Shown here: one piece after another, positions 1 through 29,436 of the stretch
Layout of the letters: the number at the start of each line of letters is the position of its first letter
Position numbering within the stretch: the first letter of the stretch is position 1
DNA from: Spiribacter halobius
GTDB taxonomy: Bacteria > Pseudomonadota > Gammaproteobacteria > Nitrococcales > Nitrococcaceae
Assembly (NCBI RefSeq): GCF_020883455.1
Contig: NZ_CP086615.1
Span: 806,001 to 870,000 of the forward strand
Length of the DNA stretch: 64,000 nt
Direction of reading: 5' to 3'
Translations under genes and position numbers: made by a program
The notes under the pieces: model-generated
What the model was told of the DNA's origin: nothing
Databases searched by the model: none
Seen by the model: the letters and a program-made list of their open reading frames with translations, nothing else

Positions 1-1
1 T

Positions 2-6768: not shown

Positions 6769-7161
6769 TGCATCACCATAGAGTCGAGGGGAGATCGGGC
6801 CGCACGCAGGCGACCTGTATAAATCTATCGATGTAGTTGGTTCCCGTAGCGTTAGGATGCATCCTTAGGTAGCTTGAGGGAAGCGTGGTGACGGTGGCTA
6901 CCAAGATGATGTGCAGCAAAGAAGGGTTAGCGGAACGGTGGGGTAGTGGTGACTCCAGGGGAACTACTCGTGGACATGCGTAGTACGCGGAATGGTGACT
7001 AGCGCGGCCGGATAGAGAGTGAGTATGTGGTGTCACGGTGGCTCGCTAACCTGTCAAACGGCATGTTGGCGGCTTCGGAGGATGGGTGAAATGTTCGGGA
7101 AAACGGGAAGATGCACTAACCCACCCAGGTGGACGTGGGGGGTTTGGTCCCCACTCCCGTT
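6769..7161 (+). other. Non-coding stretch between the SIR2-STAND gene and the palindrome
   Basis: Nearly 400 bases with no convincing gene. Short open frames on the minus strand lack a ribosome binding site and family resemblance. The sequence probably holds the promoter of the minus-strand defence gene and the outer part of the island. I could not define the sites. Confidence 0.4.
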
Positions 7162-7203
7162 CTAGTGTCCTGTAACACAGGAACCTGTGTTACAGGACAC
7201 TAG
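7162..7203. repeat. 20-bp palindrome with CTAG at both ends
   Basis: Two 20-base arms (7162-7181 and 7184-7203) are perfect reverse complements separated by AA. Each outer end is CTAG. It lies where the low-GC island changes to high-GC chromosome and 14 bases before the first possible start of the nrtR gene. IS630-family elements insert at TA within CTAG, so this could be the scar or minimal remnant of such an insertion. An operator, a terminator or an island end are the alternatives. Confidence 0.75.
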
Positions 7204-7217
7204 GTAATATCTGCCTG

Positions 7218-8240
7218 GTGGGCCGCATGTGTGCCCCAGGCCATGAGCCTGACCTGCCGCCCGTACCCGCGGGGGAGAGTCCGGTCACCGTCGACCTCAC
7301 GGCGGTGGTCGTCACCGTGGATGCGGAGCACCCCAGCGTGCTGGTGCGCCGGCTCGCCGCGGTCGCCAGCGACTCCCTCCCGTGGGGGCCGCTGCGCCCC
7401 GAGCACCGGACCCTTCAGGCCGGTCTGCGGGCTTGGGTGGAGCAGCAGACGCGCCTCTCGCTCGGCTACATCGAGCAGCTCTATACCTTTGGCGACCGCA
7501 ATCGTGCCCAACTCACCAATGCCGAGGCCGATGCGGACCGCCGGGCGATCTCGGTGGCCTACCTGGCGCTGGTGCGGGCCTCGGAGTCGGAGCCCGTACC
7601 GGAGGCGACCTGGCAGCCCTGGTATGCCTATCTGCCTTGGGAGGACTGGCGCGCCGGTGTGCCCGAGGCCCGCGCGCAGCTGCTGGCCTCCCTCGAGCAG
7701 TGGCGGGACGCGGCGGATACGCCGAGAGAGCGGCGCCAGCGCGGCGAGCGACTGTCGCTGGCCTTCGGGGCTGACGGCATGGCCTGGGACGAGGAGCGGG
7801 CACTGGAGCGCTATGAGCTGCTGTACTCGGCGCGCCTGGTGCCGGAGGCCTGGTACGACGCCGGGCAGTCCCCGCCGGCCTGGCTTGGGGCGCTGCCCGG
7901 GCGGCCCATGGCCGCCGATCACCGACGCATCCTGGCTACGGCGATCGGTCGCCTGCGCGGCAAGATCAAGTACCGCCCGGTGCTCTTCGAGCTGCTGCCG
8001 CCAACGTTCACCCTGCTGCAGCTGCAGCGGACGGCCGAGGCCATTTCCGGCGCCCGCCTGCACAAGCAGAACTTCCGCCGCCGGGTGAGCCAGGAGCGCC
8101 TGGTGGAGGAGACCGGCGGCGTCGCCACGGACACCGGCGGCCGGCCGGCACGGCTGATGCGCTTCCGGCGCGAGGTCACCCTGGAGCGCCCGGCGCCGGG
8201 GGTACGCGTCACCGCGACGCGTCGCGCCAGCCGGGTGTGA
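7218..8240 (+). CDS. nrtR: NrtR-type Nudix-like transcriptional regulator of NAD synthesis
   Basis: The N-terminal half has the fold signature of the Nudix-related NrtR family (RLSLGYIEQLYTFGDRNR, then RRAISVAYLALVR). The catalytic Nudix box is degraded: around residues 55-78 most of the conserved glutamates are missing, so it should sense ADP-ribose or a related metabolite, not hydrolyse it. The C-terminus (about 245-320; KYRPVLFELLPPTFTLLQLQ, then FRRRVSQERLVEET) is the winged helix-turn-helix of the family. It sits directly upstream of nadA on the same strand, with two inverted repeats in between that fit operators. The first start is GTG 7218; ATG 7227 in the same frame is equally possible, and neither has a strong ribosome binding site. 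Confidence 0.85.
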   Translation: MGRMCAPGHEPDLPPVPAGESPVTVDLTAVVVTVDAEHPSVLVRRLAAVASDSLPWGPLRPEHRTLQAGLRAWVEQQTRLSLGYIEQLYTFGDRNRAQLTNAEADADRRAISVAYLALVRASESEPVPEATWQPWYAYLPWEDWRAGVPEARAQLLASLEQWRDAADTPRERRQRGERLSLAFGADGMAWDEERALERYELLYSARLVPEAWYDAGQSPPAWLGALPGRPMAADHRRILATAIGRLRGKIKYRPVLFELLPPTFTLLQLQRTAEAISGARLHKQNFRRRVSQERLVEETGGVATDTGGRPARLMRFRREVTLERPAPGVRVTATRRASRV

Positions 8241-13810: not shown

Positions 13811-14839
13811 TTGCCATCCAGTCAGCCACAACCGGGCCGCCCGGGATCCGGCGCGGCGCTGAATCTCCTGGTCACCGGAGGTGCCGGCTACGTCGGCTCC
13901 CATGTCACGCGCCAGCTGCTGGCGGCGGGGCACCGGGTCACGGTGCTGGACAACCTCTCCACCGGCCACGCCTGGGCGGTGGGGGATGCCCGGCTGGTGG
14001 CCGCGGATCTCGCCGACGACGAGGCCCTGGAGGCAGTGCTCGGCGAGGGCATGGACGCCATCCTGCATTTCGCGGCCAGCGTGGTAGTGCCGGAGTCGGT
14101 GAGCGACCCGCTCAAGTACTACGGCAACAACACCCGCAACACACTGGGGCTGTTCGCGGCGGCCCACCGGCACGGGGTGCCGGCGGTGATCTTCTCCTCC
14201 ACGGCCGCGGTCTATGGTCTGCCGGAGACCGAGCGGGTGGACGAGTCGGCGCCGCTGGCGCCGATCAATCCTTACGGCGCCTCGAAGATGATGAGCGAGC
14301 GCATCCTGATGGACCTGGCGGCGGCCTCCCCGCTGCGCTACGGCATCCTGCGCTATTTCAACGTCGCCGGCGCCGAGCCGCAGGCCCGTCTCGGACAGGC
14401 CACGCCGGAGGCGACCCATCTCATCAAGGTGGCCTGCGAGGCCGCCGCCGGGGCGCGCGGCGGAGTGTCGATCTTCGGGACCGACTATCCCACGCCCGAT
14501 GGCACCGGCGTGCGTGACTACATCCACGTGGAGGACCTGGCGGCGGCCCATGTGCGACTGCTCGACCACCTGGCCGCCGGCGGCGACTCGCGGCTCTACA
14601 ACTGCGGCTACGGCCATGGCTACAGCGTGCGCGAGGTGGTGGAGGCCGTGCGCCGGCGCTCGGGGGTGGACTTCCAGGTCAACGAGGCGCCCCGCCGGGC
14701 AGGCGACCCGGCGTCACTGGTCGCGGATGCCGGGCGGCTGCGCCGGGAGCTCGGCTGGACGCCCCGGTACGACGACCTCGACACCATCGTCGACCACGCG
14801 CTCGCCTGGGAGCGGGCCTGGCAGTCCCGGCGCCGCTGA
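13811..14839 (+). CDS. galE: UDP-glucose 4-epimerase
   Basis: GalE interconverts UDP-glucose and UDP-galactose with bound NAD. The Rossmann motif LLVTGGAGYVGSHV opens the fold. FSSTAAVYG is followed by the catalytic pair YGASK (Tyr-x-x-x-Lys), then RYFNVAGA, DGTGVRDYIHVEDLA, and YNCGYGHGYSVREVV near the C-terminus. All are in frame. The body has normal length, but the start is uncertain. TTG 13811 is my choice because it shortens a non-family leader; a TTG at 13760 lies further upstream, and no ATG precedes the Rossmann fold closely. It is followed by ugd and manC on the same strand, so the three likely supply sugar nucleotides for an exopolysaccharide or lipopolysaccharide. Confidence 0.92.
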   Translation: MPSSQPQPGRPGSGAALNLLVTGGAGYVGSHVTRQLLAAGHRVTVLDNLSTGHAWAVGDARLVAADLADDEALEAVLGEGMDAILHFAASVVVPESVSDPLKYYGNNTRNTLGLFAAAHRHGVPAVIFSSTAAVYGLPETERVDESAPLAPINPYGASKMMSERILMDLAAASPLRYGILRYFNVAGAEPQARLGQATPEATHLIKVACEAAAGARGGVSIFGTDYPTPDGTGVRDYIHVEDLAAAHVRLLDHLAAGGDSRLYNCGYGHGYSVREVVEAVRRRSGVDFQVNEAPRRAGDPASLVADAGRLRRELGWTPRYDDLDTIVDHALAWERAWQSRRR

Positions 14840-14860
14840 GCGCCGGGAGTGCCAGGCCCG

Positions 14861-14922
14861 GTTTCGGGTTTCGGGTTTCGGGTTTAAAGTTCGGCTCCGG
14901 CGCAGATCGCGAAACCCGAAAC
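14861..14922. repeat. Heptamer repeat arms in the galE-ugd gap
   Basis: A run of TTTCGGG heptamers (14861-14885) follows the galE stop by about 20 bases. Its complement (GAAACCCGAAAC, 14911-14922) lies about 30 bases before the ugd start. The loop carries TTCGGCTCCGG, which recurs in the phoH-ybeY gap. The two arms can pair as a hairpin. Confidence 0.7.
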
Positions 14923-14953
14923 GCGCCCGGATCGCACCGTCGCAGGGGAACCC

Positions 14954-16315
14954 ATGAGAATCACCATCTTCGGCACCGGTTACGTAGGCCTCGTGACCGG
15001 CGCCTGCTTCGCCGAGGTGGGCAACCACGTCGTCTGCGTGGACGTCGACGGCGACAAGATCGCGCGGCTGAATCGCGGCGAGGTGCCCATCTACGAGCCC
15101 GGGCTGGAGGCGCTGGTGGCGCGCAACCGGGCGGCCGGACGGCTGGTGTTCACCACCGATGCCGCCGAGGGGGTGGCCCACGGGCGCTTTCAGTTCATCG
15201 CCGTCGGCACGCCGCCGGACGAGGACGGCTCGGCGGATCTGCGCCACGTGCTGGCGGTGGCGGGGACCATCGCCGAGCACATGGAGGACTTCAAGGTCGT
15301 GGTGGACAAGTCCACCGTGCCAGTGGGCACCGCGGACCGGGTGCGGGAGACGGTGGCCGCCGGGCTCGCCGAGCGCGGCACGCAAGTGCCCTTCGCGGTG
15401 GTCTCCAACCCGGAGTTCCTCAAGGAGGGCGCCGCGGTGGAGGACTTCATGAAGCCCGATCGGGTGATCCTCGGCACCGACGACGAGCGCTCGGCGGAGC
15501 TGCTGCGGGCCCTCTACGCGCCGTTCAACCGCAACCACGACCGGCTGATCGTGATGGACGTGCGCTCCGCCGAGCTCACCAAGTACGCGGCGAACGCCAT
15601 GCTCGCCACCAAGATCAGCTTCATGAACGAGCTCGCGAACATCGCCGATCGCGTCGGTGCGGACATCGAGCGGGTACGCATCGGCATCGGCTCCGACCCG
15701 CGCATCGGCTATCACTTCATCTACCCGGGCGCGGGCTACGGCGGCTCCTGCTTTCCCAAGGACGTCAAGGCCCTGGCGCGCACGGCCTATGACGTCGACT
15801 ACACGCCGCAGCTGCTGCAGGCGGTGGAGGACGTCAACGACCGGCAGAAGCATTACCTCTTCAGCCGTATCCGCGAGCATTTCCGCGGCGAGCTCGCCGG
15901 GCGGACGTTCGCGCTCTGGGGGCTCGCCTTCAAGCCCAATACCGACGACATGCGTGAGGCCGCGAGCCGGCGGCTGATGGAGTCGCTCTGGGAGGCCGGC
16001 GCCCGGGTGCAAGCCCACGACCCCAAGGCCATGGCCGAGACCCGGCGCGTCTACGGCGAGCGCCCGGAGCTCGCCCTGGTGGACAGCCCCGAGGCGGCGC
16101 TGGAGGGTGCCGATGCGCTGGTGATCCTCACCGAGTGGAACCTCTTCCGCAGCCCGGATTTCGAGACCATCCGCGAACGCCTATCGGCACCGGTGATCTT
16201 TGACGGCCGCAATCTCTACGATCCGGAGATCCTCGCCGGCCTCGGCTTCCATTACTATGCGGTGGGCCGTCCGCTGCGGGCGCCGGCCGTCGACGGGGCG
16301 GAGGAGCGGGCATGA
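14954..16315 (+). CDS. ugd: UDP-glucose 6-dehydrogenase
   Basis: Ugd oxidises UDP-glucose to UDP-glucuronate with two NAD molecules. The 453-residue protein begins with the Rossmann motif [20 protein letters not shown]. It has [25 protein letters not shown], and the catalytic cysteine block [18 protein letters not shown]. The C-terminal UDP-binding domain contains [17 protein letters not shown]. The ATG follows AGGGGA at good spacing. Its stop overlaps the manC start (ATGA), so the two are translationally coupled. UDP-glucuronate is used in capsule or exopolysaccharide and in lipid A or pentose pathways; no glycosyltransferases are adjacent. Confidence 0.95.
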
Positions 16316-17754
16316 CCGAGGTTCCGACGCTTGGCGCCACCGTGCCGGTGATCCTCTCCGGCGGCGTGGGCTCGCGGCTGTGGCCGCTATCTCGCGAGCT
16401 CTACCCCAAGCAGTTCCTCGATCTGACGGCGAGCGGCAGCACGCTGGTGCAGGAGACGGTGGCGCGGCTCGCGGGGGTGCCGGGCCTGACTGCGCCGCTG
16501 GTGGTCTGCAACCAGGAGCACCGCTTCCTGGTGGCCGAGCAGCTCCGGGAGAACCCTCTGGGCCCCGCGCGCATCCTGCTGGAGCCGATGGGCCGCAACA
16601 CCGCGCCGGCGGTGGCCGTGGCCGCACTGCAGGCGATGCGCGAGGACCCCGAGGCGGTGCTGGCGGTGTTCCCCGCCGATCATCGCATCGAGCACCCGGA
16701 GGTGCTGCGCTCGGCGCTGGGCAACGCCGTGGCGGCGGCGCGCGATGGCTGGCTGGTCACCTTCGGCATCGTGCCGACGCGGGCGGAGACCGGGTTCGGC
16801 TACATCGCCGCCGGGGAGCCCGTGGACGACGACGAGGCGGTGCTGCGGGTCGAGCGCTTCGTGGAGAAGCCGGATCGGCGGCGGGCGGAGGAGTACCTGC
16901 AGAGCGGCGGTTTCTACTGGAACAGCGGCATGTTCGTCTTCCGCGCCAGCCGCTATCTGGAGGAGCTGGAGCGGCTCGCGCCGGAAATGCTGAACGCCTG
17001 CGAGGCCGCGCTGGAGACCGCCACCGCCGATCTCGACTTTATCCGCCTGGGGGCGGCCGCCTTCGAGGCCTGTCCGGGGGAGTCCATCGACTACGCGGTC
17101 ATGGAGCACACCGAGGCGGCCGTTACCCTGCCGCTCGCCGCCGGCTGGAACGATCTCGGCTCCTGGGGCGCGCTGCTGGACAGCGGCGAGGCGGACGAGG
17201 CCGGCAACGTGCTGCTCGGTGACGTCATCAGCGAGGACAGCCAGGGCAACTATGTCCGCGCCGACAGCCGCCTGGTGGCGCTGGTGGGGCTGCGGGACCA
17301 TGTGGTGGTGGAAACCAGCGACTGCGTCCTGGTGGCCCCGCGGGAGCGGGTCCACGAGGTGAAGGGGGTGGTGGCGCGGCTGCAGCGGGAGGGCCGGCCC
17401 GAGGCGAGCCTGCATCAGCGGGTGCACCGCCCCTGGGGCAGCTATGAGGGTCTGGCGCTCGGCGAGCGCTTTCAGGTCAAGCGCATCGTGGTCAATCCCG
17501 GCTGCAGCCTGTCGCTGCAGATGCATCACCACCGGGCCGAGCACTGGGTCGTGGTCCGTGGCACGGGCCGCGTGGTCCGCGGCGAGGACAGCTTCCTGCT
17601 GAGCGAGGACCAGTCCACCTACATCCCCCTCGGCACGGTCCACCGCCTGGAGAATCCCGGTGTCATCCCCCTGGAGATGGTGGAGGTGCAGTCCGGGAGC
17701 TATCTGGGGGAGGACGACATTGTGCGGCTCGAGGACCACTTCGGCCGCGCCTGA
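16312..17754 (+). CDS. manC: Mannose-1-phosphate guanylyltransferase / mannose-6-phosphate isomerase
   Basis: A bifunctional type II PMI-GMP enzyme of 480 residues. The N-terminal nucleotidyltransferase (about 8-290) has the pyrophosphorylase signature [20 protein letters not shown], then [12 protein letters not shown] and the FVEKPD block. The C-terminal cupin isomerase (about 350-475) has [38 protein letters not shown] and the [14 protein letters not shown] zinc site. It makes GDP-mannose from fructose 6-phosphate together with a phosphomannomutase, which is not in the window. It overlaps ugd by four bases. In this gene set it points to synthesis of a mannose- and uronate-containing surface polysaccharide. 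Confidence 0.95.
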
Positions 17755-17766
17755 GGGCGCCGCCGA

Positions 17767-17910
17767 GTGGCAAGTTGCAAGCGGCAAGTTGCAAGCTGCG
17801 GGAAAGAGGCCATTCAGATGCGCGACCGTGGCCTGATCGGCCAGCGTGTCCACTTAGCGTCGAGACAAGACGCCGGGGTCTTTAAACTTTAAACTTGCAA
17901 CGTGAAACTG
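17767..17910. repeat. Decamer repeat arms in the manC-miaB gap
   Basis: Repeats of the type GTGGCAAGTTGCAAG (17767-17796) follow the manC stop by 12 bases. The complementary, more degenerate arm TTTAAACTTGCAACGTG lies near 17888-17905, just before miaB. A possible GTG start of miaB falls inside the second arm, which argues against that start. Confidence 0.65.
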
Positions 17911-17979
17911 AATCCCAGAGCTGACGTTATGTCGTCGGAGATCGAAAGCGCCGCTAGAGCAGGAGCGAAGCCCGCCCGA

Positions 17980-19359
17980 ATGCCCCGCAAAGTGTTTATC
18001 CGCACCCACGGCTGCCAGATGAACGAGTACGACTCGATGAAGATGCTGGACGTGCTGGCCGCCGAGGGGGACTACGAGCGGGTGGCGGAACCGGACGCGG
18101 CGGACGTCATCCTGCTCAATACCTGCTCCATCCGCGAGAAGGCCCAGGAGAAGGTCTTCTCCGAGCTCGGCCGCTGGCGGGCGCTGAAGGCGGAGAACCC
18201 CGATCTGCTGATCGGCGTCGGCGGCTGCGTGGCGAGCCAGGAAGGGGCGGCCATCGTCGAGCGCGCGCCTTTCGTGGACCTGGTGTTCGGCCCGCAGACC
18301 CTGCACCGGCTGCCGGACATGGTCGCCCGGGCGCGGGAGAGCCGGCGTCCGGTGGTGGATGTCTCCTTCCCCGAGATCGAGAAGTTCGACCGCCTGCCGG
18401 AGCCGCGGGCCGAGGGGCCGACGGCCTTCGTCTCCATCATGGAGGGCTGCAGCAAGTACTGCAGCTTCTGCGTGGTGCCCTATACCCGCGGCGAGGAGAT
18501 CAGCCGGCCGTTCGATGACGTGCTCGCCGAGTGCGCGCTGCTCGCCGAGCAGGGCGTGCGCGAGGTCACCCTGCTCGGGCAGAACGTCAACGGCTACGAC
18601 GGCCTCACGCACGACGGCGGCCGGGCGGATCTGGCGCTGCTGGTGCAGTACCTCGCCGCCATCGACGGTCTCGAGCGCATTCGCTTCACCACCTCGCATC
18701 CGCTGGACTTCAACGACGCCCTGGTGGCGGCCTATGCCGAGGTGCCCGAGCTCGCCGGCCACCTGCACCTGCCGGTGCAGAGCGGCTCGGACAACGTGCT
18801 GCGGCTGATGAAGCGCAATCACGGCCGCGCGGAGTTCCTCGATCTGGTGCGCCGGCTGCGCGCCGCGCGCCCGGATCTGACCCTGTCCTCCGACTTCATC
18901 GTCGGCTTCCCCGGCGAGATGCGCCAGGACTTCGAGGACACCATGGCGCTGGTGGAGGAGGTCGGCTTCGACCAGTCCTTCAGCTTCATCTACTCCCGCC
19001 GTCCCGGCACGCCGGCCGCGCAGCTCCCGGATGCCACCCCGCGGGAGGAGAAGAAGGCCCGCCTGCAGCGGCTGCAGGCAGTGCTGGACGCCAACGGCCA
19101 GCGCATCAGCGAGGCCATGGTGGGCAGCGAGCAGTCCGTGCTGGTGGACGGCGTCTCGAAGAAGCGCTCCGACGAGATCGCCGGCCGCACGGAGAACAAC
19201 CGCGTCGTCAACTTCCCCGGGCATCCGCGCCTCATCGGCCGGTTCGTGCGGGTGCGCATCACCGAGGCCCTGTCGCACTCCCTGCGCGGCGAGCTGCTGG
19301 GCCTGGATGCCGCCCGCGAACCCGAGCTCACCGGGGCGGCCCGCGCCCGCGCATCATGA
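17980..19359 (+). CDS. miaB: tRNA-2-methylthio-N6-dimethylallyladenosine synthase
   Basis: MiaB is a radical SAM methylthiotransferase that converts i6A37 to ms2i6A37 in tRNAs reading UNN codons. The N-terminal cluster cysteines are in [23 protein letters not shown] and GGCVAS. The radical SAM motif [15 protein letters not shown] and a C-terminal TRAM domain (about the last 65 residues) follow. The frame is open back to GTG 17902 and ATG 17929, but those would add a leader encoded partly by an intergenic repeat. The family begins just before the VFIRTHGCQ block, so ATG 17980 is preferred. It heads the conserved miaB-phoH-ybeY-corC-lnt series. Confidence 0.93.
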
Positions 19360-19372
19360 GGGTCTGCTGATC

Positions 19373-20353
19373 TTGGCAGCGCAACCCGAAGCCATCGATT
19401 TCACCCTGAATCCCCCGGACAACAACCGTCTCGCCAATCTCTGCGGCCAGTTCGACGAGCACCTCCGCCAGGTGGAGCGCCGGCTGGGCGTGGAGATCAA
19501 GAACCGCGGTCACCGCTTCCGAATCATCGGCGAGGATGCCGCCGCCGAGGCGGCGACGCGGGTCATCCGGGCGCTCTACGAGACCACCGCACGCGAGACC
19601 ATCGGCGCCGAGAGCGTGCACCTGCAGCTGCAGACCGCCGACCCGCCGGCCGTCGCGGCGGACGGGGGGCCGGACTGCGACGTCACCATCCGCACCCGAA
19701 AGGGGCTGGTGCGGGGCCGTGGACCGAACCAGCGCGCCTACCTGGACCAGGTACAGCGGTTCGACCTCAACTTCGGCGTCGGCCCCGCCGGCACGGGCAA
19801 GACCTACCTCGCCGTTGCCAGCGCGGTGGATGCCCTGGAGCGGGATCTGGTGCAGCGGCTGGTGCTGGTGCGCCCGGCGGTGGAGGCGGGCGAGCGCCTC
19901 GGCTTCCTGCCCGGGGACCTTGCGCAGAAGGTGGACCCCTACCTGCGCCCGCTCTACGACGCGCTGTTCGAGATGCTCGGCTTCGAGCGGGTGAACAAGC
20001 TCATCGAGCGCAACGTCATCGAGGTGGCGCCGCTGGCCTACATGCGCGGGCGCACCCTGAACGGGGCCTTCATCATCCTCGACGAGGCCCAGAACACCAC
20101 CGTGGAGCAGATGAAGATGTTCCTTACCCGCATCGGCTTTGGCTCGACGGCGGTGGTCACCGGTGACGTCACCCAGATCGACCTGCCGGCGGGCAAGACC
20201 TCGGGCCTGCGCGACGCCATCGATGTGCTGCGGGACGTGGAGGGGGTGAGTTTCACCTTCTTCAATGCCACCGACGTGGTGCGCCACGATCTGGTGCAAC
20301 GGATCGTGCGCGCCTATGACCGCCGGGACGGTCCGCAGGAGGGTGGTGGGTAG
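19373..20353 (+). CDS. ybeZ: PhoH-like ATPase (YbeZ)
   Basis: This is a 326-residue cytoplasmic P-loop ATPase of the PhoH family, which works with YbeY in rRNA and RNA metabolism. The N-terminal region has the family start IDFTLNPPDNNRLANLCGQF. The Walker A motif GPAGTGKTYLA, the block ERLGFLPGDLAQKVDPYLRP, Walker B FIILDEAQNTT and the sensor VVTGDVTQIDLP are present. The best start is TTG 19373, 14 bases after the miaB stop. The frame is open much further upstream, but only as an overlap of miaB. ybeY follows after a 234-base repeat-filled gap. Confidence 0.92.
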   Translation: MAAQPEAIDFTLNPPDNNRLANLCGQFDEHLRQVERRLGVEIKNRGHRFRIIGEDAAAEAATRVIRALYETTARETIGAESVHLQLQTADPPAVAADGGPDCDVTIRTRKGLVRGRGPNQRAYLDQVQRFDLNFGVGPAGTGKTYLAVASAVDALERDLVQRLVLVRPAVEAGERLGFLPGDLAQKVDPYLRPLYDALFEMLGFERVNKLIERNVIEVAPLAYMRGRTLNGAFIILDEAQNTTVEQMKMFLTRIGFGSTAVVTGDVTQIDLPAGKTSGLRDAIDVLRDVEGVSFTFFNATDVVRHDLVQRIVRAYDRRDGPQEGGG

Positions 20354-20380
20354 GCAGCGGCGCGATGTTCTGCGTTGGAG

Positions 20381-20570
20381 GTTTCGGGTTTAACGTTTCG
20401 AGTATAAAGTTCGGCTCCGGTCCGCGCGGTCGCCGTGGCCTGCGCTCATGCTGTCGTCGGCGGTTCACGGCAAGCCCGAACAGGCATACCGGCGAGTGCC
20501 ACTCCCAAGCCTGGAATTGCCGACCCTTCAACTCGAAACGTTAAGCCCGAAACCTCACACCAGAAACCTG
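20381..20570. repeat. Heptamer repeat arms in the phoH-ybeY gap
   Basis: GTTTCGGGTTTAACGTTTCG (from 20381) with TTCGGCTCCGG after it lies 27 bases past the phoH stop. The opposite arm ACTCGAAACGTTAAGCCCGA and CCAGAAACCTG (20530-20570) ends 17 bases before the ybeY ATG. The arms are complementary with a loop of about 110 bases. The frame of ybeY is open through the second arm, which could mislead start calling. Confidence 0.65.
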
Positions 20571-20587
20571 TTGCCAGCCGCGGTTCC

Positions 20588-21034
20588 ATGTCCAACGTCA
20601 CCATGCAAATCGCCAGCGAGCACGGTTCTATTCCCGGTGCCGCGGATTTCCGCCGCTGGGCCGCGGCCGCTCTGGGGGAGGCGCATGCGGAGGCGGAGAT
20701 GACCATCCGCGTGGTGGACGAGGCGGAGGGGCGGGCGCTGAACCGGGACTACCGGGGCAGGGACTACGCCACCAATGTGCTCTCCTTCCCGGTGGAGCTG
20801 CCGGCGGGGGTGGAGCTGCCGCTCGTCGGCGATCTCGTGATCTGCGCGCCGGTCGTGACCCGCGAGGCGGCGGAGCAGGGCAAGGCCCCGGAGGCCCATT
20901 GGGCGCATCTTGTGGTACACGGGGTCTTGCACCTCCTTGGCTACGACCATATACGGGAGGACGAGGGCGTGGTGATGGAGGCCCGTGAGCGGGAGATTCT
21001 CGCGGGACTGGGCTATCCTGATCCCTATGCTTAG
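20588..21034 (+). CDS. ybeY: Endoribonuclease YbeY, rRNA maturation factor
   Basis: YbeY is a zinc-dependent single-strand endoribonuclease for 16S rRNA 3' maturation and ribosome quality control. The zinc signature [15 protein letters not shown] (three histidines in the HxxxHxxxxxH arrangement) and the fold block [13 protein letters not shown] are intact. The 148 residues from ATG 20588 match the family length. Upstream in-frame codons translate an intergenic repeat and were left out. It lies between phoH and corC, as in Escherichia coli. Confidence 0.93.
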
Positions 21035-21260
21035 GCCGGACACCGCACCGCCGCGGGCGGTGACGACCGGCGTGACAGCGACAGCTGGCCGTTGCAGGAG
21101 CGCGCGGCCGGCGGGGCGGGAATGCCGGTTCCGGCGAAGCGCCGCCAGGGCCATGGAGGGCGCGCGGGAGATCCGGCGGTTGATCGGTTAGGGCGCTGGC
21201 GCTGCCAGCGGGCTAACCCATCGACCGGGGGATTTCTTCCGCAACCACTGACGGGGATGC

Positions 21261-22148
21261 ATGAGCGAGGATCGACCTAGCAGTAGCAGCGCCAGCCAGA
21301 GATCCTGGCTGGAGCGGATCGGGCAGGCGCTCGGCGGCAGCGAGCCGCGCGACCGCGAGGATCTCGTGCAGATCCTGCGCCACGCCAACGAGCGGGGCAT
21401 CCTGGATGGCGACGCGCTCGCCATGTTCGAGGGCGTGCTCCACGTCGCCGAGCTGCAGGCGCGGGACATCATGATCCCGCGCTCCCAGGTAGCGGTGCTC
21501 TCGCGGGCCGAGTCGGTCTGGGCGCTGCTGCCCACCATCATCGAGAGCGGGCATTCCCGCTTTCCGGTGACCGGGGACAGCCGCGACGACGTCATCGGCA
21601 TCCTCATCGCCAAGGATCTGCTGCCCTATCTGGATCCCCAGCACCAGCGGGAGTTTCGCCTGCGCGAGCTGCTTCGCCCGGCGCTGTTCATCCCCGAGAG
21701 CAAGCGCCTGGACGCGCTGCTCAAGCTGTTTCAGGAGAGCCGCAATCACCTCGCCGTGGTGGTGGACGAATACGGCGGGCTCGCGGGCATCGTGACCATC
21801 GAGGACGTCATCGAGCAGATCGTCGGCGAGATCGACGACGAGCACGATCTCGACGAGGACAGCTGGATCCTGAGCCGCGGCGAGGACGGCCGGACGGTGG
21901 TGAAGGCGCTGACGCCCATCGAGGACTTCAACGAGCACTTCGGCACCGACTTCACCGACGACGAGTTCGACACCATCGGCGGCCTGGTCGCCAACGGCTT
22001 CGGCCACGTGCCCCGGCGCGGCGAGGTCATCACCCTCGGCGATCTGCGCTTCGAGGTGGTGCGGGCCGACAGCCGGCGTATCCATCTGCTGATGGTGACG
22101 CGCTCCGTCCCCGCCCCGGCGGAATCTGCCAACGGTGCGACCCACTAG
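21261..22148 (+). CDS. corC: CorC/YbeX-type CBS-domain protein
   Basis: This 295-residue protein has two CBS domains (about 65-190; IMIPRSQVAVLSRAESVWAL, then VVVDEYGGLAGIVTIEDVIE). The C-terminal CorC_HlyC domain is at about 210-280 (FNEHFGTDFTDDEFDTIGGL). The family has been linked to cobalt and magnesium efflux and, as YbeX, to ribosome homeostasis. It lies in the phoH-ybeY-corC-lnt series; 226 bases separate it from ybeY and 40 from lnt. There is no membrane domain. It starts at ATG 21261. Confidence 0.93.
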   Translation: MSEDRPSSSSASQRSWLERIGQALGGSEPRDREDLVQILRHANERGILDGDALAMFEGVLHVAELQARDIMIPRSQVAVLSRAESVWALLPTIIESGHSRFPVTGDSRDDVIGILIAKDLLPYLDPQHQREFRLRELLRPALFIPESKRLDALLKLFQESRNHLAVVVDEYGGLAGIVTIEDVIEQIVGEIDDEHDLDEDSWILSRGEDGRTVVKALTPIEDFNEHFGTDFTDDEFDTIGGLVANGFGHVPRRGEVITLGDLRFEVVRADSRRIHLLMVTRSVPAPAESANGATH

Positions 22149-22188
22149 TGTCCCCGGAGGGCATGCGAACCGGCATTAAGGGATCCTA

Positions 22189-23694
22189 GTGCGCGCGCTC
22201 CTCGCCGCGCCGTGGGCGTATCCCCTGGCGCTCGCCGCCGGGCTGCTGATGCCCCTCGGCCTCGCGCCGGTGGGCCTTGCCTGGGCCCCGTTCGCCGGGC
22301 TGGCGGTGATCTTCGCCGTGGTCTGCGCGGCCCCGTGGCGGCGCGCGGCGCTCGCGGCCTACCTGTTTGGTCTCGGCTACGCCGGGCTCGGTGTCTACTG
22401 GATCTTCATCGCGGTGGGCGAGTACGGCGGCGGCCTGCTGGCGGCGAGCCTGGTGACGCCGCTGTTCGTGGCGCTGTTCGCGCTGCTGCCCCTGGCGGCG
22501 CTGCTGCTCGGACGGCTGCTGGGGCGCGGCCGTCCCGCGGTGACCACGCTGCTGGCGCTGCCGCTCGCCTGGATCCTGGTGGAGTGGGTGCGCAGCTGGC
22601 TGCTCACCGGCGCCACCTGGCTGTCCATCGGCTACAGCCAGCTGGAGACGCCGCTGTCGGGGCTCGCACCGGTGCTCGGGGTCTACGGCGTCGGCCTCGC
22701 CATCGCGCCGGTGGCCGGGGCGCTCGCCTGGTGGCTGCTGTCGCCGCTGTCGCTGCGTCTGCTGGCGCCGGCGCTGCTGGCATTGCTGGTGTTCGGCGTG
22801 GGGCTGCTGCTGCCCGGCCGCTGGACCGAGCCCGTGGGCGAGCGGCTCGAAGTGGCGCTCATCCAGGGCAACGTCTCCCAGGATCAGAAATGGCTCGAGG
22901 CGAACCGCGACCGGACCCTCGAACACTACATCGACACCAGCCGCGAGCACTTCGGCCGCGACCTGGTGATCTGGCCGGAGACCGCCGTGCCGGCCTTCTT
23001 CCATCAGGTGCGCGATTCCCACCTGGCGCCGCTGGCCGAGGAGGCCCGCGCGGCGGGGACCACGCTGCTGGTGGGGGCACCGGTGGCGGATGTCGCCGGC
23101 GAGGGTCTGTTCAACGCTGTCGTCTCCCTGACCGACCCGCCGGCGTTCTACTACAAGCGCCATCTGGTGCCCTTCGGCGAGTACGTCCCGTTGCGCGATG
23201 CCTTCGGCGGCGTCCTCGACTTCGTCGGCGCTCCCCTCGGCGACTTCAACGCCGGCACCGACCCGTCGCCCCTGCCGGCGGCAGGACGGCGCATCGGCGT
23301 CAGCATCTGCTACGAGGTCACCTTCGGTGCCGAGGTGGCGGAGGCGCTGCCGGCGGCCGAGCTGCTGCTGAACGTCAGCAACGACGCCTGGTTCGGCGAT
23401 TCCTTCGCCCCCTGGCAGCACCTGGAGATGGCCCGGATGCGGGCGCTGGAAACGGGGCGGCCCATGCTGCGGGCCACCAACACCGGCGTGACCGCCCTCA
23501 TCGACCACCGCGGCCGCCTCCGGACGGTCGGCCCCCTGTTCGAGCAGGCGGTGGTCACCGGCACGGTGCAGCCCCACCAGGGCGCGACGCCCTACGTCCG
23601 CTGGGGCGACTGGCCGGTGGTCGGGGTGGTGGCGGCCGGGCTGCTGGTGGTTGGACCGCTTGCGGGGCGGCGCCGCAAGGGCCTGTTCCGGTAG
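22189..23694 (+). CDS. lnt: Apolipoprotein N-acyltransferase
   Basis: Lnt adds the third acyl chain to lipoproteins in the inner membrane, so that Lol can move them outward. The 501 residues begin with about six hydrophobic spans (1-215), followed by the periplasmic nitrilase-like domain. Its catalytic Glu-Lys-Cys triad is visible as LVIWPETAVPAFF, FYYKRHLVPFGEYVP and GVSICYEVTFG. A last span precedes the basic C-terminus. It starts at GTG 22189. It serves the lipoproteins in this window (LptE, RlpA, MltB). Confidence 0.95.
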   Translation: MRALLAAPWAYPLALAAGLLMPLGLAPVGLAWAPFAGLAVIFAVVCAAPWRRAALAAYLFGLGYAGLGVYWIFIAVGEYGGGLLAASLVTPLFVALFALLPLAALLLGRLLGRGRPAVTTLLALPLAWILVEWVRSWLLTGATWLSIGYSQLETPLSGLAPVLGVYGVGLAIAPVAGALAWWLLSPLSLRLLAPALLALLVFGVGLLLPGRWTEPVGERLEVALIQGNVSQDQKWLEANRDRTLEHYIDTSREHFGRDLVIWPETAVPAFFHQVRDSHLAPLAEEARAAGTTLLVGAPVADVAGEGLFNAVVSLTDPPAFYYKRHLVPFGEYVPLRDAFGGVLDFVGAPLGDFNAGTDPSPLPAAGRRIGVSICYEVTFGAEVAEALPAAELLLNVSNDAWFGDSFAPWQHLEMARMRALETGRPMLRATNTGVTALIDHRGRLRTVGPLFEQAVVTGTVQPHQGATPYVRWGDWPVVGVVAAGLLVVGPLAGRRRKGLFR

Positions 23695-23719
23695 CGGCCG
23701 GGCCGGGGCCGGCCCGGCG

Positions 23720-24118
23720 GTTTCGGGTTTAAGGTTAAGGAAGCGCTGATTAATTCCCGCGGGCCTCTGCGCTCCAGAGCGGCGGCCTGGCAAGGCGGCG
23801 TTCGCAGTGAATGGCCGTCGCCCTTTACAAGAACGCCAACGCAGTCCAGGGCGCCGCTCTGGAGCGCCCTTCGGGGCCGCAGGTCGCGCGCGCAGCCGGC
23901 GTTGCGCTGCTTGACTGTACCCCCGGTACAGCGCTGCGCAGCGTGCCTTGTCTGCGCACGCGACCTGCGGCCAGAGGCCCGCGGGAATTGATCAGCGCTT
24001 CCTTAACGTTGAAGGTTGGCGGAAGGGGCGATACCACCGCCAGGGTTCTGGTTGGGCACGGCATCCTCCCAAACCTTAAACTCGAAACGTGAAGCTCGAA
24101 ACGCGAAACACGAAACTG
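23720..24118. repeat. Heptamer repeat arms in the lnt-ybeL gap, interrupted by a palindromic element
   Basis: TTTCGGGTTTAAGGTTAAGG (from 23721) follows the lnt stop. The complementary series AAACCTTAAACTCGAAACGT and CGAAACACGAAACTG (24070-24118) ends right at the ATG of ybeL (24120). The two arms would form a hairpin like those in other gaps, but the 270-base palindromic element at 23735-24006 sits between them, as if inserted into the bracket. Confidence 0.6.
23735..24006. repeat. Palindromic MITE-like element, copy 1
   Basis: About 270 bases bounded by 35-base inverted repeats (23735-23769 and 23972-24006, one mismatch). The shared core of the ends reads TTCCCGCGGGCCTCTG. Inside are two further hairpins, one from each half. 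A second copy is at 45135-45400 with similar core and hairpins but different outer arms. No reading frame is convincing, so it is a non-autonomous structured repeat. Confidence 0.8.
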
Positions 24119-24158
24119 AATGGCGAAGCCATTCCGCACGACCCCGGAGATCAGACGC

Positions 24159-24677
24159 ATGTCCGACAGCGACCCGAAGGACCGTCAGGTACGCGGCTAC
24201 GAGCGCATGCTCGACCGCCTGCGCCATCGCCTCGAGGATACCGAGCAGGCCTGGGGCGAGAATCTGCGCGAGGCCCTCGAGCATGCCCGCGACCGCGCGG
24301 TCGAGCTCGGCGAGCTGACCCGGGAGGAGGCCGACCGGGTCGCCGCCTGGCTGCGCCGCGATCTCGACGAGGCTGCCCAGTACACCGCCCACACCCAGCG
24401 CGACCTCGCCGACTGGCTGCACATGGACCTGCAGCTGGTGGAGAACTGGATCTGGGACCGCTTCTCCTCCGTGGCCGACCGTACCCGCCTCGAGTGGCTG
24501 CAGTTCCAGCGCGAGCTGGGCGAGGCGGCCACCTACCACACCGGCGAGATCGCCGCCCCCGGCGCGCTGGCCTGCCGGGAGTGCGGCGAGGTGCTGCATT
24601 TCGAGCGGGCCGGCCACATCCCGCCCTGCCCCCGCTGCCACGGCACGGCGTTCGAGCGCCAGGCGCAGCCGGCGTAG
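24159..24677 (+). CDS. ybeL: Zinc ribbon-containing protein YbeL (DUF1451)
   Basis: The 172 residues form a long charged helical region (residues 8-125, rich in E, R and D). A C-terminal zinc ribbon with two Cys-x2-Cys knuckles follows, LACRECGEVL and IPPCPRCHGTAF. This is the DUF1451/YbeL family. Its cellular role is unknown; the gene lies near leuS in E. coli as it does here. ATG 24159 has a GGAG ten bases upstream. ATG 24120 is also in frame but sits directly on an intergenic repeat arm. Confidence 0.88.
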   Translation: MSDSDPKDRQVRGYERMLDRLRHRLEDTEQAWGENLREALEHARDRAVELGELTREEADRVAAWLRRDLDEAAQYTAHTQRDLADWLHMDLQLVENWIWDRFSSVADRTRLEWLQFQRELGEAATYHTGEIAAPGALACRECGEVLHFERAGHIPPCPRCHGTAFERQAQPA

Positions 24678-24789
24678 CCCCGGCATCCCTGGTTCGGGGG
24701 GCTTGCGGCGGTGGCCACCTTGGACAGGTACAGCTAATGGTGCCCTTGTCGCCGTAGCCCTCGCGGAATCCGCCACCAGCGTCGGCGGT

Positions 24790-24895
24790 GCGGGGCGGGG
24801 CAGGAGCGCCCGGGACCGTAGGAGAGAGGGCCCTCGCCTACGAGCTTACAGGGACGTATTCACAGCGTGTCCCGGGCGCTCCTGCCCCGCCCCGC
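24790..24895. repeat. Long hairpin of the GTGAATACATCC family (minus orientation)
   Basis: Two perfect 27-base arms (24790-24816 and 24869-24895) enclose a second, smaller hairpin and the family core, which reads GGGACACGCTGTGAATAC on the minus strand. It lies between ybeL and leuS. Two relatives are at 40538-40645 and 40792-40903. The arms have a different sequence in each copy but pair within each copy. It could act as a bidirectional terminator or a structured RNA. Confidence 0.8.
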
Positions 24896-25090
24896 GCAGG
24901 GCACGGCGGTAACGTCAGCCGCGGCACCGCGGACCACGCGCGCCCGTGATTGTCCTCGTCCGCGGGCTTCCGGCTCCGGGCAGGCAGGCCCGCACGGATG
25001 CACGGCGGCCCACCCTCACGGTATCCTTGCGCCCTTCACCGGGCCGCGCGGCGGCCCGCCGACCCCTGAACACCGGACCAGTCCACGCCC

Positions 25091-27682
25091 ATGCAAGCGA
25101 ACTACGATCCCGCCAGCATCGAGACCGAGGCGCAGGCCTTCTGGAACGAGCAGGACAGCTTCCGGGTAACCGAGGAGCCCGGGCGGGAGACCTTCTACTG
25201 CCTCTCCATGCTGCCCTACCCGAGCGGGCGGCTGCACATGGGCCACGTGCGCAACTACACCATCGGCGACGTCATCAGCCGCTTCCAGCGCATGCAGGGC
25301 CGCAACGTCCTCCAGCCCATGGGCTGGGACGCCTTCGGCCTGCCGGCGGAGAACGCCGCGATCAAGCGGGGCGTGCCGCCGGCGCAATGGACCTACGACA
25401 ACATCGCCCACATGCGCCGCCAGCTGCAGCGCATGGGCTACGGCTACGACTGGTCCCGCGAGGTCACCACCTGCAGCCCGGACTACTACCGCTGGGAGCA
25501 GGCCATGTTCACTCGCCTGTTCCGCAAGGGCCTCGTCTACCGGGCCAAGGCAGTGGTCAACTGGGACCCGGTGGACCAGACCGTGCTCGCCAACGAGCAG
25601 GTCGTTGACGGCCGCGGCTGGCGCTCCGGGGCGCCGGTGGAGCGCCGGGAGATCCCGCAGTGGTTCCTGCGCATCACCGACTACGCCGACGAGCTGCTGG
25701 AGGGCCTGGACACGCTGCCGGGCTGGCCCGAGGCCGTGAAGACCATGCAGCGCAACTGGATCGGGCGCTCCGAGGGCGTGGAGCTGGATTTCGCCCTGGC
25801 CGACGGCGGCGAGCCCCTGCGCGTCTACACCACGCGGCCGGATACCCTCTACGGCGCCACCTACATGGCGGTGGCCGCCGACCACCCCCTGGCCAGGGCG
25901 GCCGCGGAGCGCGATCCGGAGGTGGCGGCGTTCCTCGAAGAGGCGCGCCGCGGCGCGGTGACCGAGGAGGCGCTGGAGACGCTCGAGAAGCGCGGCGTGC
26001 CCCTCGGCGTCGACGCGGTCAACCCGCTCTCCGGCGAGCGCATTCCGGTCTGGGTCGCCAACTTCGTGCTGATGGGCTACGGCACCGGCGCGATCATGGC
26101 CGTGCCCGCCCATGACGAGCGGGACCACGAATTCGCCGTGAAGTACGGCCTACCCATCCGCCAGTCCGTCGGCCCGGCCGACGGCAGCGCCATCGACGTC
26201 CAGGCCGAGGCCTGGAGCGCGAAGGAGAACCTCGTCACGGTCGACTCCGGCGAGTTCACCGGGCTCGATTTCGCCGCTGCCTTCGAGGCCATCGCAGATC
26301 ATCTGGAGCAGCGCGGCATCGGCCAGCGCCGGGTGAACTACCGCCTGCGGGACTGGGGGGTCTCGCGTCAGCGCTACTGGGGCTGCCCCATCCCGATGAT
26401 CCACTGCCCCGACTGCGGCCCCGTGCCGGTCCCGGAGGACCAGCTGCCGGTGGTGCTGCCGGAGGACGTCCGCTTCATGGGCGTGCAGTCGCCGCTCAAG
26501 GCCGATCCCGAGTGGCGGCGCACCAGCTGTCCGCATTGCGGCGGCCCCGCCGAGCGCGAGACCGACACCTTCGATACCTTCGTGGAGTCTTCCTGGTACT
26601 ACGCCCGCTACTGCTGCCCGGACGCCGGCGACATGGTTGACGCCCGCGCCGACCACTGGCTGCCCATCGACCAGTACATCGGCGGCATCGAGCATGCCGT
26701 CATGCATCTGCTCTACTTCCGGTTCTGGCACAAGCTGATGCGCGACGAGGGCCTGGTGACGAGCGACGAGCCGGCCACGCGGCTGCTCTGCCAGGGCATG
26801 GTGCTGGCGGAGTCGTACTACCGCGACGGTGCCGATGGCGGCCGCGAATGGGTGCCGCCGGCAGAGGTGCGCACCGAGCGCGACGACAAGGGCCGCATCG
26901 TGAGCGCCGTCTGGGAGCAGGACGGCGAGCCCGTGACGCCGGCGGGCTGGACCACCATGTCCAAGTCCAAGAACAACGGCGTCGATCCGGAATCCCTGGT
27001 GCAGCGCTTCGGGGCGGACACGGTGCGGCTGTTCACCATGTTCGCCGCGCCACCGGACCAGGCTCTGGAGTGGCAGGACAGCGGCGTCGAGGGCGCCGCC
27101 CGCTTCCTGCGTCGCCTCTACGGCCTGGTTTCGGAACATGTGGCTGCGGGGCCCGCGCCGGCGTTGGAGCCGGCGGCGCTGGGCGAGGACGAGCGCGCTC
27201 TGCGCCGCAAGCTGCACGAGACCCTGCGCAAGGTCACCGACGACGTCGGCCGCCGCTACACCTTCAACACGGCCGTCGCGGCGGTGATGGAGCTCTGCAA
27301 TGCCCTCGGCCGCTTCGAGGGCAGTGGCGCCGCCGCCCGCGCGGTGCGCCAGGAGGCGCTGGAGACCGTGGTGCTGATGCTGCAGCCCATCACGCCGCAC
27401 ATCAGTCACCACCTCTGGCAGGCCCTCGGTGGCAGCGGCGCCGCCGTGGACGCGCCCTGGCCGGCGGTGGACGAGAGCGCGCTGGAGCGCAGCGAGCTGG
27501 AGCTCGTGGTTCAGGTCAACGGCAAGCTGCGCAGCCGCCTCTCGGTGGCCGCCGATGCCGACCGCGAGACCATCGAGGCCGCGGCCCTCGCCGACGAGAA
27601 CGTGCAGCGCTTCACCGAGGGCAAGACCGTGCGCCGCGTGGTGGTGGTACCCGGGCGTCTGGTCAATGTGGTGGCGAACTGA
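25091..27682 (+). CDS. leuS: Leucyl-tRNA synthetase
   Basis: LeuS charges tRNA-Leu in the cytoplasm and edits mischarged products. The 863 residues have the class I HIGH motif ([20 protein letters not shown]), the CP1 editing domain (about 230-430; [17 protein letters not shown]), a zinc-like insertion with CPDCG and CPHCG, and KMSKS as TMSKSKNNG. The anticodon-binding domain and a C-terminal LeuS domain follow. It starts at ATG 25091, 413 bases after ybeL. lptE follows with overlapping or nearly touching ends. Confidence 0.97.
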
Positions 27683-28184
27683 GCCCGCGGCCGTGGCACG
27701 GGCGCTGATCCTGCTCGGCCTCTCGCTCGCGCTGACGGCCTGCGGCTGGCAGCTCCGCGGCGCGACGGGCGGTGGCTTCGAGGGCACGGTGCTGCGGCTG
27801 CAGGGCGACGTGGACACGCCGGTCCTGCGGCTCGCCGAGGCCGAGCTGCTCGATCTCGGCGCACAGGTCGCTGCCGCCGGCGCGGCCGCCGATGCCGTGC
27901 TGGTGGTCACCGGTGCCGACACCCGCCGCCGCACCGTCTCCGTGGACGACCGCGGCCGCGCCCGGGAGTACGAGCTGACCTACCGCCTGAGCTTCCGGCT
28001 GGAGCCGCCGGACGAGGCGGCGGAGCGCCCCCGCCTCGCCCCCCAGACCGTCACCACCAGCGCCGCCTACGCCGTGGACCCCCTCGACACGCAGGCCGCC
28101 GACGCCCGCGAGACCCAGCTTGGGCGGGAGCTGCGGGTGGATGCGGTGAGGCTCATGCTGGCGCGGGTCGCCCGGGCGCTCTGA
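27666..28184 (+). CDS. lptE: LPS-assembly lipoprotein LptE
   Basis: LptE is the outer-membrane lipoprotein that plugs the LptD barrel and helps insert lipopolysaccharide. A lipoprotein signal ([16 protein letters not shown], lipobox LTAC) is followed by the family start GWQLRG. The rest has the alternating strands of LptE ([42 protein letters not shown]). Two starts are possible: ATG 27666, which overlaps leuS by 17 bases, and GTG 27693 just after it; neither has a clear ribosome binding site. leuS-lptE-holA is the standard order. Its partner lptD is at 49835-52201. Confidence 0.88.
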
Positions 28185-28200
28185 GCGCCCGGGCCACTAT

Positions 28201-28392
28201 AAGTTGCAAGTGGCAAGTGGCAAGTGGCAAGTAGCAAGTTCCAAGTGGAGACGGAGCAGGAATCTGGCTCCGGTGAAATGCTGCCCGCACGACGGACAAA
28301 ACTGGGCAGCGGGGGGAGCATCGCATGGGATCATGATCGAGGCGTGCGGCCACTCGCTTTGAACTTGTAACTTGCCACTTGCAACTGCGAAC
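28201..28392. repeat. Decamer repeat arms in the lptE-holA gap
   Basis: Five near-copies of a ten-base unit (AAGTTGCAAG, TGGCAAGTGG type) at 28201-28246 start 16 bases past the lptE stop. The complementary arm, AACTTGTAACTTGCCACTTG then CAACTGCG, at 28363-28392 ends three bases before the holA ATG. GGCTCCGGTG between the arms recalls the loop of the heptamer class. No other ribosome binding site is seen for holA. Confidence 0.7.
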
Positions 28393-28395
28393 TAA

Positions 28396-29436
28396 ATGTC
28401 TTTCATCTCCACCGACCAGCTCCCCAACCGCCTGGCCCAGCGGCTCGACCCGGTGTATCTGATCGCGGGCGAGGAGCCGCTGCTGGTGGAGGAGGCGTTG
28501 GGGGCGTTGCGGGAGCGGGTGCGGGCGGCCGGGTTCGGGGAGCGAGAGGTGCTCTCGGTGGAGGCGGGGTTCGACTGGTCGCGGCTGGCGGGGGCGGCGG
28601 AGAATCTTTCGCTGTTCGCCGAGCGGCGGCTGATCGAGCTGCGCCTGCCCCAGGGCAAGCCGGGGCAGGAGGGCACGCGCGCCCTGCAGGCCTTTGCCAA
28701 GGCACCGCCGGCGGACACCGTGCTGGTGGTGATCTGCGGTCGCCTCGACAGCCGCCAGCGCAGCGCCGCCTGGGTCAAGGCGCTGGCCGGGGCCGGGGTG
28801 GTGGCCTACGCGTGGCCGGTGCGCAGCGAGGCGCTGCCGCGCTGGGCCGCCGCCCGTCTGCGCCAGCGCGGGCTCACGGCCGATCCCGAGGCGCTGGACC
28901 TGCTCGCCGAACGCGGCGAGGGCAATCTGCTGGCGCTGTCCCAGGAGATCGACAAGCTGGCCCTGCTCGCCGGGGGCGGGCACCTGGACGTCGCTACCGT
29001 GCGCGGCGCGGTGGGGGACAGCGCCCGCTTTGCCATCTTCGATCTGCCAGAGGCCGCGCTGGCCGGCGGCCTGGCGCGCACGGCGCGCATCTGCCGCGGG
29101 CTGCGCGAAGAGGGGGAAGAGCCGGTGCTGGTGCTCTGGGCGCTGGCGCGGGAGCTGCGGGTGCTGGCGGAGCTGCAGGAGAGCGCCCGGCTGCGCCGCT
29201 CGCCGGACGCCGTGTTCGGCCGCCACCGGACCTGGCGCAATCGTCAGGGCGCGCTCTGGGAGCTGGCGCGGCGCGCTCCGGCCGGCGCCTGGGTAGAGCT
29301 GGCCCGACGCACGGCCACCGCTGATCGGGTGGTCAAGGGGGCGGCAGCGGGGCGGCCGTGGGACGAGCTGTTACAATTGAGCACCGATATCGCCAGGCTC
29401 GCCGCTGCGGCGGGCAGTGACGGAAAGCGCCCATGA
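28396..29436 (+). CDS. holA: DNA polymerase III subunit delta
   Basis: HolA is the wrench subunit of the clamp loader that opens the beta sliding clamp. The 346 residues match the family: early [20 protein letters not shown], then [24 protein letters not shown] in the N-terminal domain, [15 protein letters not shown] in the middle, and the C-terminal collar helices ([13 protein letters not shown]-like region). ATG 28396 comes directly after a repeat arm and has no Shine-Dalgarno sequence. The stop overlaps proA (ATGA). Confidence 0.93.

Follow-up and report, generated by a model that had tools for sequence, protein, structure and literature searches.

The stretch of DNA analysed here, 64,000 nt of the Spiribacter halobius genome (NZ_CP086615.1; G000:C1:806001-870000; hereafter the window), contains five intergenic gaps, galE-ugd, manC-miaB, phoH-ybeY, lnt-ybeL and lptE-holA, and in all five an AT-rich array of 7-nt units lies past the stop codon of the first gene and the inverse of that array lies before the start codon of the next. 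We think it likely that these bracketed gaps are gene-less copies, scattered through the genome, of a small selfish element of the kind found as intervening sequences (IVSs) in 23S ribosomal RNA (rRNA), an element whose full-length form would carry a gene for the S23 protein (S23p; family PF05635). A sequence-only reading of the window had correctly recognized the arms in all five gaps; it missed that the period is seven throughout the window and that the same arms bracket PF05635 genes elsewhere.

One such gene is present in the same genome. At about G000:C1 3115030-3115555 two far-apart arms of one of the window's unit classes (class 2, below) enclose an open reading frame (ORF) of 119 residues that belongs to PF05635 (23S_rRNA_IVP; E 7e-29) and also to TIGR02436. 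The closest solved structure to its product is XCC0516 of Xanthomonas campestris (2gsc, five chains), which is described as a homopentameric ring (PMC4990558). The genome holds only two PF05635 genes; in the arms of the second the unit is 8 nt long (GGTGATTA), and positions 3003381-3003506 hold an inverted pair of the 8-nt unit GGTGATGA without a gene.

The association extends to other genomes. PF05635 loci were taken from a set of 20 genomes (15 loci, with the family present in 9 of the 20) and from 397 Pseudomonadota genomes (the best 30 loci, with the family present in 62), and the domain could be placed in 44 of these 45. Their median inverted-arm score is 41, compared to a median of 19 and a 95th percentile of 28 for cross-locus controls, and to a median of 20, a 95th percentile of 27 and a maximum of 49 for controls displaced by 0.9 kb; 35 of the 44 loci score above 28. 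We chose the 95th percentile as threshold because orthologous loci in opposite orientation give cross-locus scores above about 300, and none of the PF05635 loci exceeds the 99th percentile of the cross-locus scores. In the 35 loci above threshold the median aligned arm is 32 nt long. Period-7 arrays are present within 300 nt on both sides of the gene in 27 of 44 loci versus none of 85 control windows placed 1 kb away (30 of 44 if periods 6 and 8 are counted too), and in 24 of those 27 the G-skew points inward. Thus inverted 7-nt arms surround most of the PF05635 genes tested. Loci differ in their arm unit, whereas the two arms of a locus share it, and it often recurs elsewhere in its genome. 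For nine genomes both a PF05635 locus and another array were available (four of them had been seen to match beforehand). In five (S. halobius, Dokdonella, Frateuria, G090 and G128) the gene arms and another array have units identical at 7 of 7 bases, and in G067 the match is 6 of 7, compared with 3 of 72 cross-genome comparisons that reach 7 of 7. Two PF05635 genes of equal score in one genome (G315:C1:1863760-1864083 and 2100178-2100501) may reflect a recent doubling of the element. None of the 40 PF05635 loci (of 45) that were scanned with Rfam lies inside rRNA.

The gene-less arms of S. halobius form a well-defined family. Tandem periodicity was scanned in 464 kb, comprising the window and twenty 20-kb stretches placed at round coordinates, with genes called by a simple codon-usage script rather than a standard gene finder. 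Lag 7 yielded 21 intergenic arrays, all below 58% GC, and 3 coding ones, at least one of which consists of N only; the number of intergenic arrays at any other lag was 0-3, except for the harmonic lag 14 with 16. In the whole genome GTTTCGGGTTT occurs 16+18 times (reversed-pattern control 0+0), and with at most one mismatch GCAAGTNGCAAGT occurs 89+92 times (control 12+12) and GTTCAAAGTTCAARGTT 72+59 times (control 1+8). The units fall into three classes, GTTTCGG-like (class 1), CAAGTNG (class 2) and GTTCAAA (class 3), all of which fit GTTNNRR. The two classes of like layout described by the sequence-only reading are real in the window, where the third is absent. One G per unit is conserved at 97-99%, and beside it, in class 2, adjacent units disagree at one position in 52% of cases. 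The twenty 20-kb stretches contain eleven elements, or by proportion about 115 per genome. The simpler pattern CAAGTNN (46+37 in this genome, reversed-pattern control 42+36) was rejected as a measure of copy number because class-3 arms are what the reversed pattern picks up: it matches 22 merged arms, and every one of them is class 3.

Polarity is nearly invariant. A set of 143 merged arms with at least two motif units, drawn from 81 stretches mostly chosen for holding repeats and with arms inside called genes removed, was used to determine the order of left (L) and right (R) arms. Successive arms less than 350 bp apart are LR in 62 cases and LL in one, with no RL or RR, so that 62 of 63 neighbouring pairs in the parts of the genome read point inward; the two arms are of the same class in 58 of the 62 LR pairs, and 19 of the 143 arms are in no such pair. 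The outer end is sharp and falls in one phase: in 123 arms the A of the terminal A|GT is at the last position in 80% (48% in class 1) and one base further out in 8%. The commonest number of units is four (48 of 124 arms). One class-3 pair of loops aligns over 48 nt at 71% identity, direct flank repeats at k = 9 were matched by 48 of 1000 shuffles without correction for multiple tests (61 elements), and position along the chromosome shows no clear pattern in coarse bins.

The five copies in the window, none of which carries a PF05635 ORF, are as follows (window coordinates; left arms on the + strand, right arms on the - strand). The galE-ugd element, the shortest at 62 bp (14861-14922), has a class 1 left arm of GTTTCGG units at 14861-14892 and a right arm (CGAAACCCGAAAC) at 14910-14922. 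The manC-miaB element (17766-17909) has a class 2 left arm of CAAGTNG units at 17766-17795 and a right arm of mixed class 1 and 2 units at 17880-17909, and the phoH-ybeY element (20381-20554) a class 1 left arm at 20381-20412 and a right arm at 20526-20554. In the lnt-ybeL element (23720-24117) the class 1 left arm (23720-23734) is shortened by a nested miniature inverted-repeat transposable element (MITE), and the class 1 right arm occupies 24071-24117. The lptE-holA element (28202-28386) has a class 2 left arm of about six units at 28202-28247 and a right arm at 28357-28386. Several details of the sequence-only reading change. Of the "7- or 10-base" period only the 7 holds, since the supposed GTGGCAAGTT repeat is a misread GTGGCAA unit once its neighbours are included; the GGCTCCGG common to some loops is there as the inner end of class 1 left arms (GTTCGGC), and its occurrence in lptE-holA is probably chance. 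The claim that holA and ybeL have little ribosome binding site stands for holA, where no Shine-Dalgarno sequence is visible and the start is backed by homology from residue 1 in a relative (L071), but ybeL may start either at 24120 or, behind a GGAG, at 24159. No Rfam match was found at 14000-29000 of the window.

The nested MITE is 264 bp long (23739-24002), has long inverted ends (GGAAGCGCTGATTAATTCCC...) and is flanked on both sides by TTAA (23735-23738 and 24003-24006); other full or partial copies are at window 45151-45384 and in L030, L047, L055 and L063. Elsewhere in the window, positions 1-7300 contain long ORFs in which the genome-trained codon-usage caller predicts no genes, which suggests a compositionally foreign stretch.

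The sequence-only reading had offered, as one possibility, a repeat family that targets gene junctions, and placement bears this out: arms on the stop side lie a median of 21 nt from the stop codon (n = 69), and the median distance of arms from start codons is 57 nt. Comparison with relatives shows that three of the junctions can be much tighter. In an Ectothiorhodospiraceae metagenome-assembled genome (L071) the phoH-ybeY, lnt-ybeL and lptE-holA gaps measure 9, 5 and 12 nt, against 234, 425 and 211 nt in S. halobius; phoH-ybeY is 90 nt in L072 and 709 nt in L165. In L165 (G004:C125) that gap is full of palindromes (TGTAGGAGCG...) that we take to be of the repetitive extragenic palindromic (REP) kind, so different genera have unrelated repeats at the phoH-ybeY junction.

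Other lineages have heptads of other units. The CAAGTNN pattern is lacking in 55 of the 58 relatives drawn, GGGTGAA has few matches, in 2 of 6 genomes, and 80 named loci (1.29 Mb) yielded 21 arrays at lag 7, 30 at lag 6, 27 at lag 9 and 36 at lag 12, counts that were not sorted by coding. Dokdonella and Frateuria have inward pairs of the unit GGGAATN, and 18 of 27 pairs from 39 stretches have exactly four units on both sides. An element is inserted in frame inside uvrD of Frateuria sp. Soil773, adding 35 residues, and in G090 an element of unit GGGATTC is inserted in frame at the same place, adding 40. The site is empty in 28 of 30 uvrD loci (the best of 59 genomes searched), both filled ones being in Rhodanobacteraceae, and the tree of the 30 loci requires two insertion events; that one site was entered twice may mean targeting, or that it is the sole tolerant spot. 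Used as a query, the Frateuria uvrD element aligns almost from end to end, including the loop, with others in its genome, the best at 82%. Near uvrD the unit subfamilies GGGAATC, GGGATTC and GGGGAAC coexist within one genome, each pair matched to itself (L241 2556-2659 in Frateuria; L242 830-994 and 2447-2547 in G120).

These findings are consistent with the following model. The full-length element would mostly be 410-570 bp long and consist of two inward inverted arms, each roughly 28-32 bp long and built of about four 7-nt units, on either side of a single PF05635/TIGR02436 gene, whose product would be the four-helix-bundle S23 or 23S-rRNA-intervening-sequence protein. Gene-less copies would retain the arms and a short filler and would multiply in some genomes, presumably mobilised in trans and probably by S23p reading the arms. 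We propose such reading because the G of the unit is so strongly conserved while base-by-base pairing with the partner arm is hardly kept (below). Copies at gene junctions may survive because their RNA stem is tolerated, or because it is cut by RNase III as in rRNA IVSs.

A number of observations weigh against this model. Scores of 28 or below were obtained for nine of the 44 PF05635 loci; a heptad arm is still present in some of these, and four (L322, L324, L330 and L334) have no clear arm pair. Moreover, 30 of the 45 loci were the top scorers of their set, and since several loci are orthologues or near duplicates of one another, the 44 are not independent cases. In S. halobius no gene-bearing copy with class 1 or class 3 arms was found. 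The gene-arm unit does not match the other array in G064, G066 and G192, and period-7 arrays occur in G060, G068, G120 and G127, where no PF05635 match was found. Gene-less copies are not general among PF05635-bearing genomes: no period-7 array was seen in 100 kb of G315, 160 kb of G506 or 80 kb of G200, all of which bear the family, and G192 has one in about 40 readable kb. No enzyme able to move the element was identified. Inverted flanks and target-site duplications at k = 2-8 do not exceed shuffled partners in 61 elements, and loops of different loci are mostly not homologous (6 of 62 have more than two matches, largely via nested repeats). Finally, the empty-site evidence for the window copies is at family level only, since the 58 relatives include no genome of the same genus, and insertion within the genus was not seen directly.

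Might the arms instead be RNA structures useful to the host, selected as 3'-end stabilisers, terminators or processing sites? The sequence-only reading had also proposed a long-range RNA or DNA structure that would control read-through or translation, and as to folding the proposal holds up. The median fold z-score of the 59 elements of 260 bp or less is -5.86, compared to -1.20 for 82 control gaps, and elements fold far better than their shuffles; in the window the predicted folds are strong for phoH-ybeY (20381; z -6.5) and lptE-holA (28207; z -5.3) and weak for galE-ugd (14861; z -1.75) and manC-miaB (17771; z -0.67), the lnt-ybeL copy being above the length limit. The nearness of arms to stop codons fits a host function, as does the orientation of the neighbouring genes, which among 60 elements with both neighbours called are in the same direction at 39, convergent at 15 and divergent at 6, compared with 139, 26 and 36 of 201 background gaps. 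In addition, short hairpins adjoin 30 of 68 arms on the stop side (6.7 in shuffled sequence) and 14 of 51 on the start side (3.5) in S. halobius. At about G000:C1 820813-820860, 834160-834196 and 588148 genes end in a perfect hairpin shortly before the arm, with the end of the coding sequence as the 5' stem and the stop codon in the loop or centre. However, only 1 of 43 hairpins near stops has at least five T in the next 8 nt, as an intrinsic terminator would, and abutment is weak in Frateuria and Dokdonella (8 of 54, where shuffling gives 3.8); PF05635 elements do not show it (4 of 70, with 2.8 after shuffling). An abutting hairpin as a general target of the element was rejected on these counts, being strong in S. 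halobius and not general elsewhere, and we left such hairpins out of the model because PF05635 elements lack them.

The pairing data also speak against a host structure. In class 2 an arm pairs with its own partner about as well as with arms from other loci (22.10 vs 21.74; 460 of 2000 permutations as high), and the same is true of class 3 (22.75 vs 22.90; 1259 of 2000); there is a hint of preference in class 1 (18.0 vs 16.5; 138 of 2000), where outer-anchored pairing is 0.783 vs 0.714 (74 of 2000 as high), with nine pairs only in both comparisons. Exchange of right arms changes the minimum free energy by a mean of 0.10 kcal, the own arm giving the lower value in 29 of 57, and the outer-anchored unit match in Frateuria and Dokdonella is weakly raised in 27 pairs (0.41 vs 0.32, a value reached by 59 of 3000 shuffles). 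The preference of an arm for its own partner over arms of other loci is small or nil, which argues against an RNA switch tuned to its locus; the pairing test set by the sequence-only reading itself is mostly failed. The predicted hairpins do not appear to be tuned one by one by selection, and yet something keeps the unit and its direction. Copies also occur inside the coding sequence of uvrD, and we regard a host-selected RNA structure as unlikely. Plain microsatellites, made by polymerase slippage and paired by chance or by fold-back copying, would account for arms that are internally homogenised, such as that at 297035 with 11 like units, and 7-nt repeats are over-represented in some bacteria according to literature quoted in PMC4679880; but slippage would not be expected to give a unit common to dozens of loci, fixed polarity, phase-locked outer ends, or a near-invariant G beside so variable a position, and with the gene association and the polarity already contradicting it we give it very little credence. 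A third possibility is that these are elements of the REP, bacterial interspersed mosaic element (BIME) or REP doublet (REPIN) type, moved by a REP-associated tyrosine transposase (RAYT), which share the habitat, a similar copy number and gene-less inverted pairs, and the REP-like filling of the phoH-ybeY gap of L165 shows that such repeats can occupy one of the same junctions. Here, though, the arms are tandem 7-nt arrays rather than single palindromes, and the gene found inside them is PF05635 and not a tyrosine transposase, which makes this explanation very improbable. Maintenance for G-quadruplex formation, as considered for heptamers of the Xanthomonas and Nostoc kind, would fit the inward pairs, stop-proximal layout and four-unit preference shared with GGGAATC repeats (PMC4692102), as well as the GGG in class 1 units. 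Classes 2 and 3, however, make up 114 of 146 raw arms, have no G-tracts and are paired inward all the same; a quadruplex cannot explain the layout for them, and we consider it barely plausible for the family.

The S23p-type element joins three things that have been described separately: heptamers between genes, an orphan four-helix-bundle family with no known function, and rRNA IVSs, whose origin is unknown. In its broadest form, to which we would give even chances, S23p genes with 7-nt arms are a widespread, unrecognised class of one-gene mobile elements; rRNA IVSs are copies that landed in rRNA, the heptamer "microsatellites" of the Xanthomonas and Ectothiorhodospiraceae kind are gene-less offspring, and pentameric S23p recognises the units, perhaps as RNA, with RNA-based mobility. 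If this is true, S23p gains a testable role in binding or moving arms, the origin of IVSs becomes an ordinary question about mobile elements, and the role of quadruplexes in the Xanthomonas heptamer layout needs rethinking.

Among known systems, REPINs, BIMEs and MITEs are likewise gene-less, inverted, intergenic and present in many copies, but the elements described here have period-7 arms and an S23p gene in the full-length form, and no target duplication was seen. The TAACTGA repeats of Beggiatoaceae are intergenic heptamers near starts at many loci, direct with one exception, and have been read as a possible translational regulator site (PMC4679880); ours are also intergenic heptamers at many loci, but 62 of 63 arm pairs are inverted and the unit is variable, rather than one fixed heptamer in a single direction. 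The GGGAATC repeats of Xanthomonas, which form 70 inward pairs in one genome and 75 in another, prefer four units and lie near stops, have been discussed as G-quadruplex formers of unknown role that are generally not linked to known mobile elements (PMC4692102). Inward pairs near stops with four units preferred are also what is seen here, in Frateuria and Dokdonella too, the difference being that class 2 and 3 units lack the GGG that class 1 has. We found no paper in the open-access PMC literature that links heptamer gap repeats, S23p and IVSs; the main texts of PMC4679880 and PMC4692102 do not make the S23p/IVS link, that of PMC4692102 does not mention S23p, and the Coxiella IVS paper records the heptamers of the IVS without tying them to genome-wide repeats in the text consulted (PMC4990558). 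That IVS, in the 23S rRNA of Coxiella burnetii, is 428 nt long, is described as selfish, has a 28-bp terminal stem, an S23p ORF and tandem heptamers (GACAGAT) in its 5' region, and is cut out by RNase III (PMC4990558). The likeness lies in terminal inverted repeats built of heptamers, four of which make 28 bp, in a stem of about that length. Such a stem is predicted for the elements of S. halobius, weakly for the galE-ugd and manC-miaB copies, and the S23p ORF is present in relatives with the same arms, in S. halobius and elsewhere, though not in the window copies themselves. Gene-less rRNA IVSs exist too. The window copies, gene-less as well, lie between protein genes and not in 23S rRNA; because of this location we do not file them as rRNA IVSs, and by analogy they would be gene-less relatives of the Coxiella kind of IVS, living outside rRNA.

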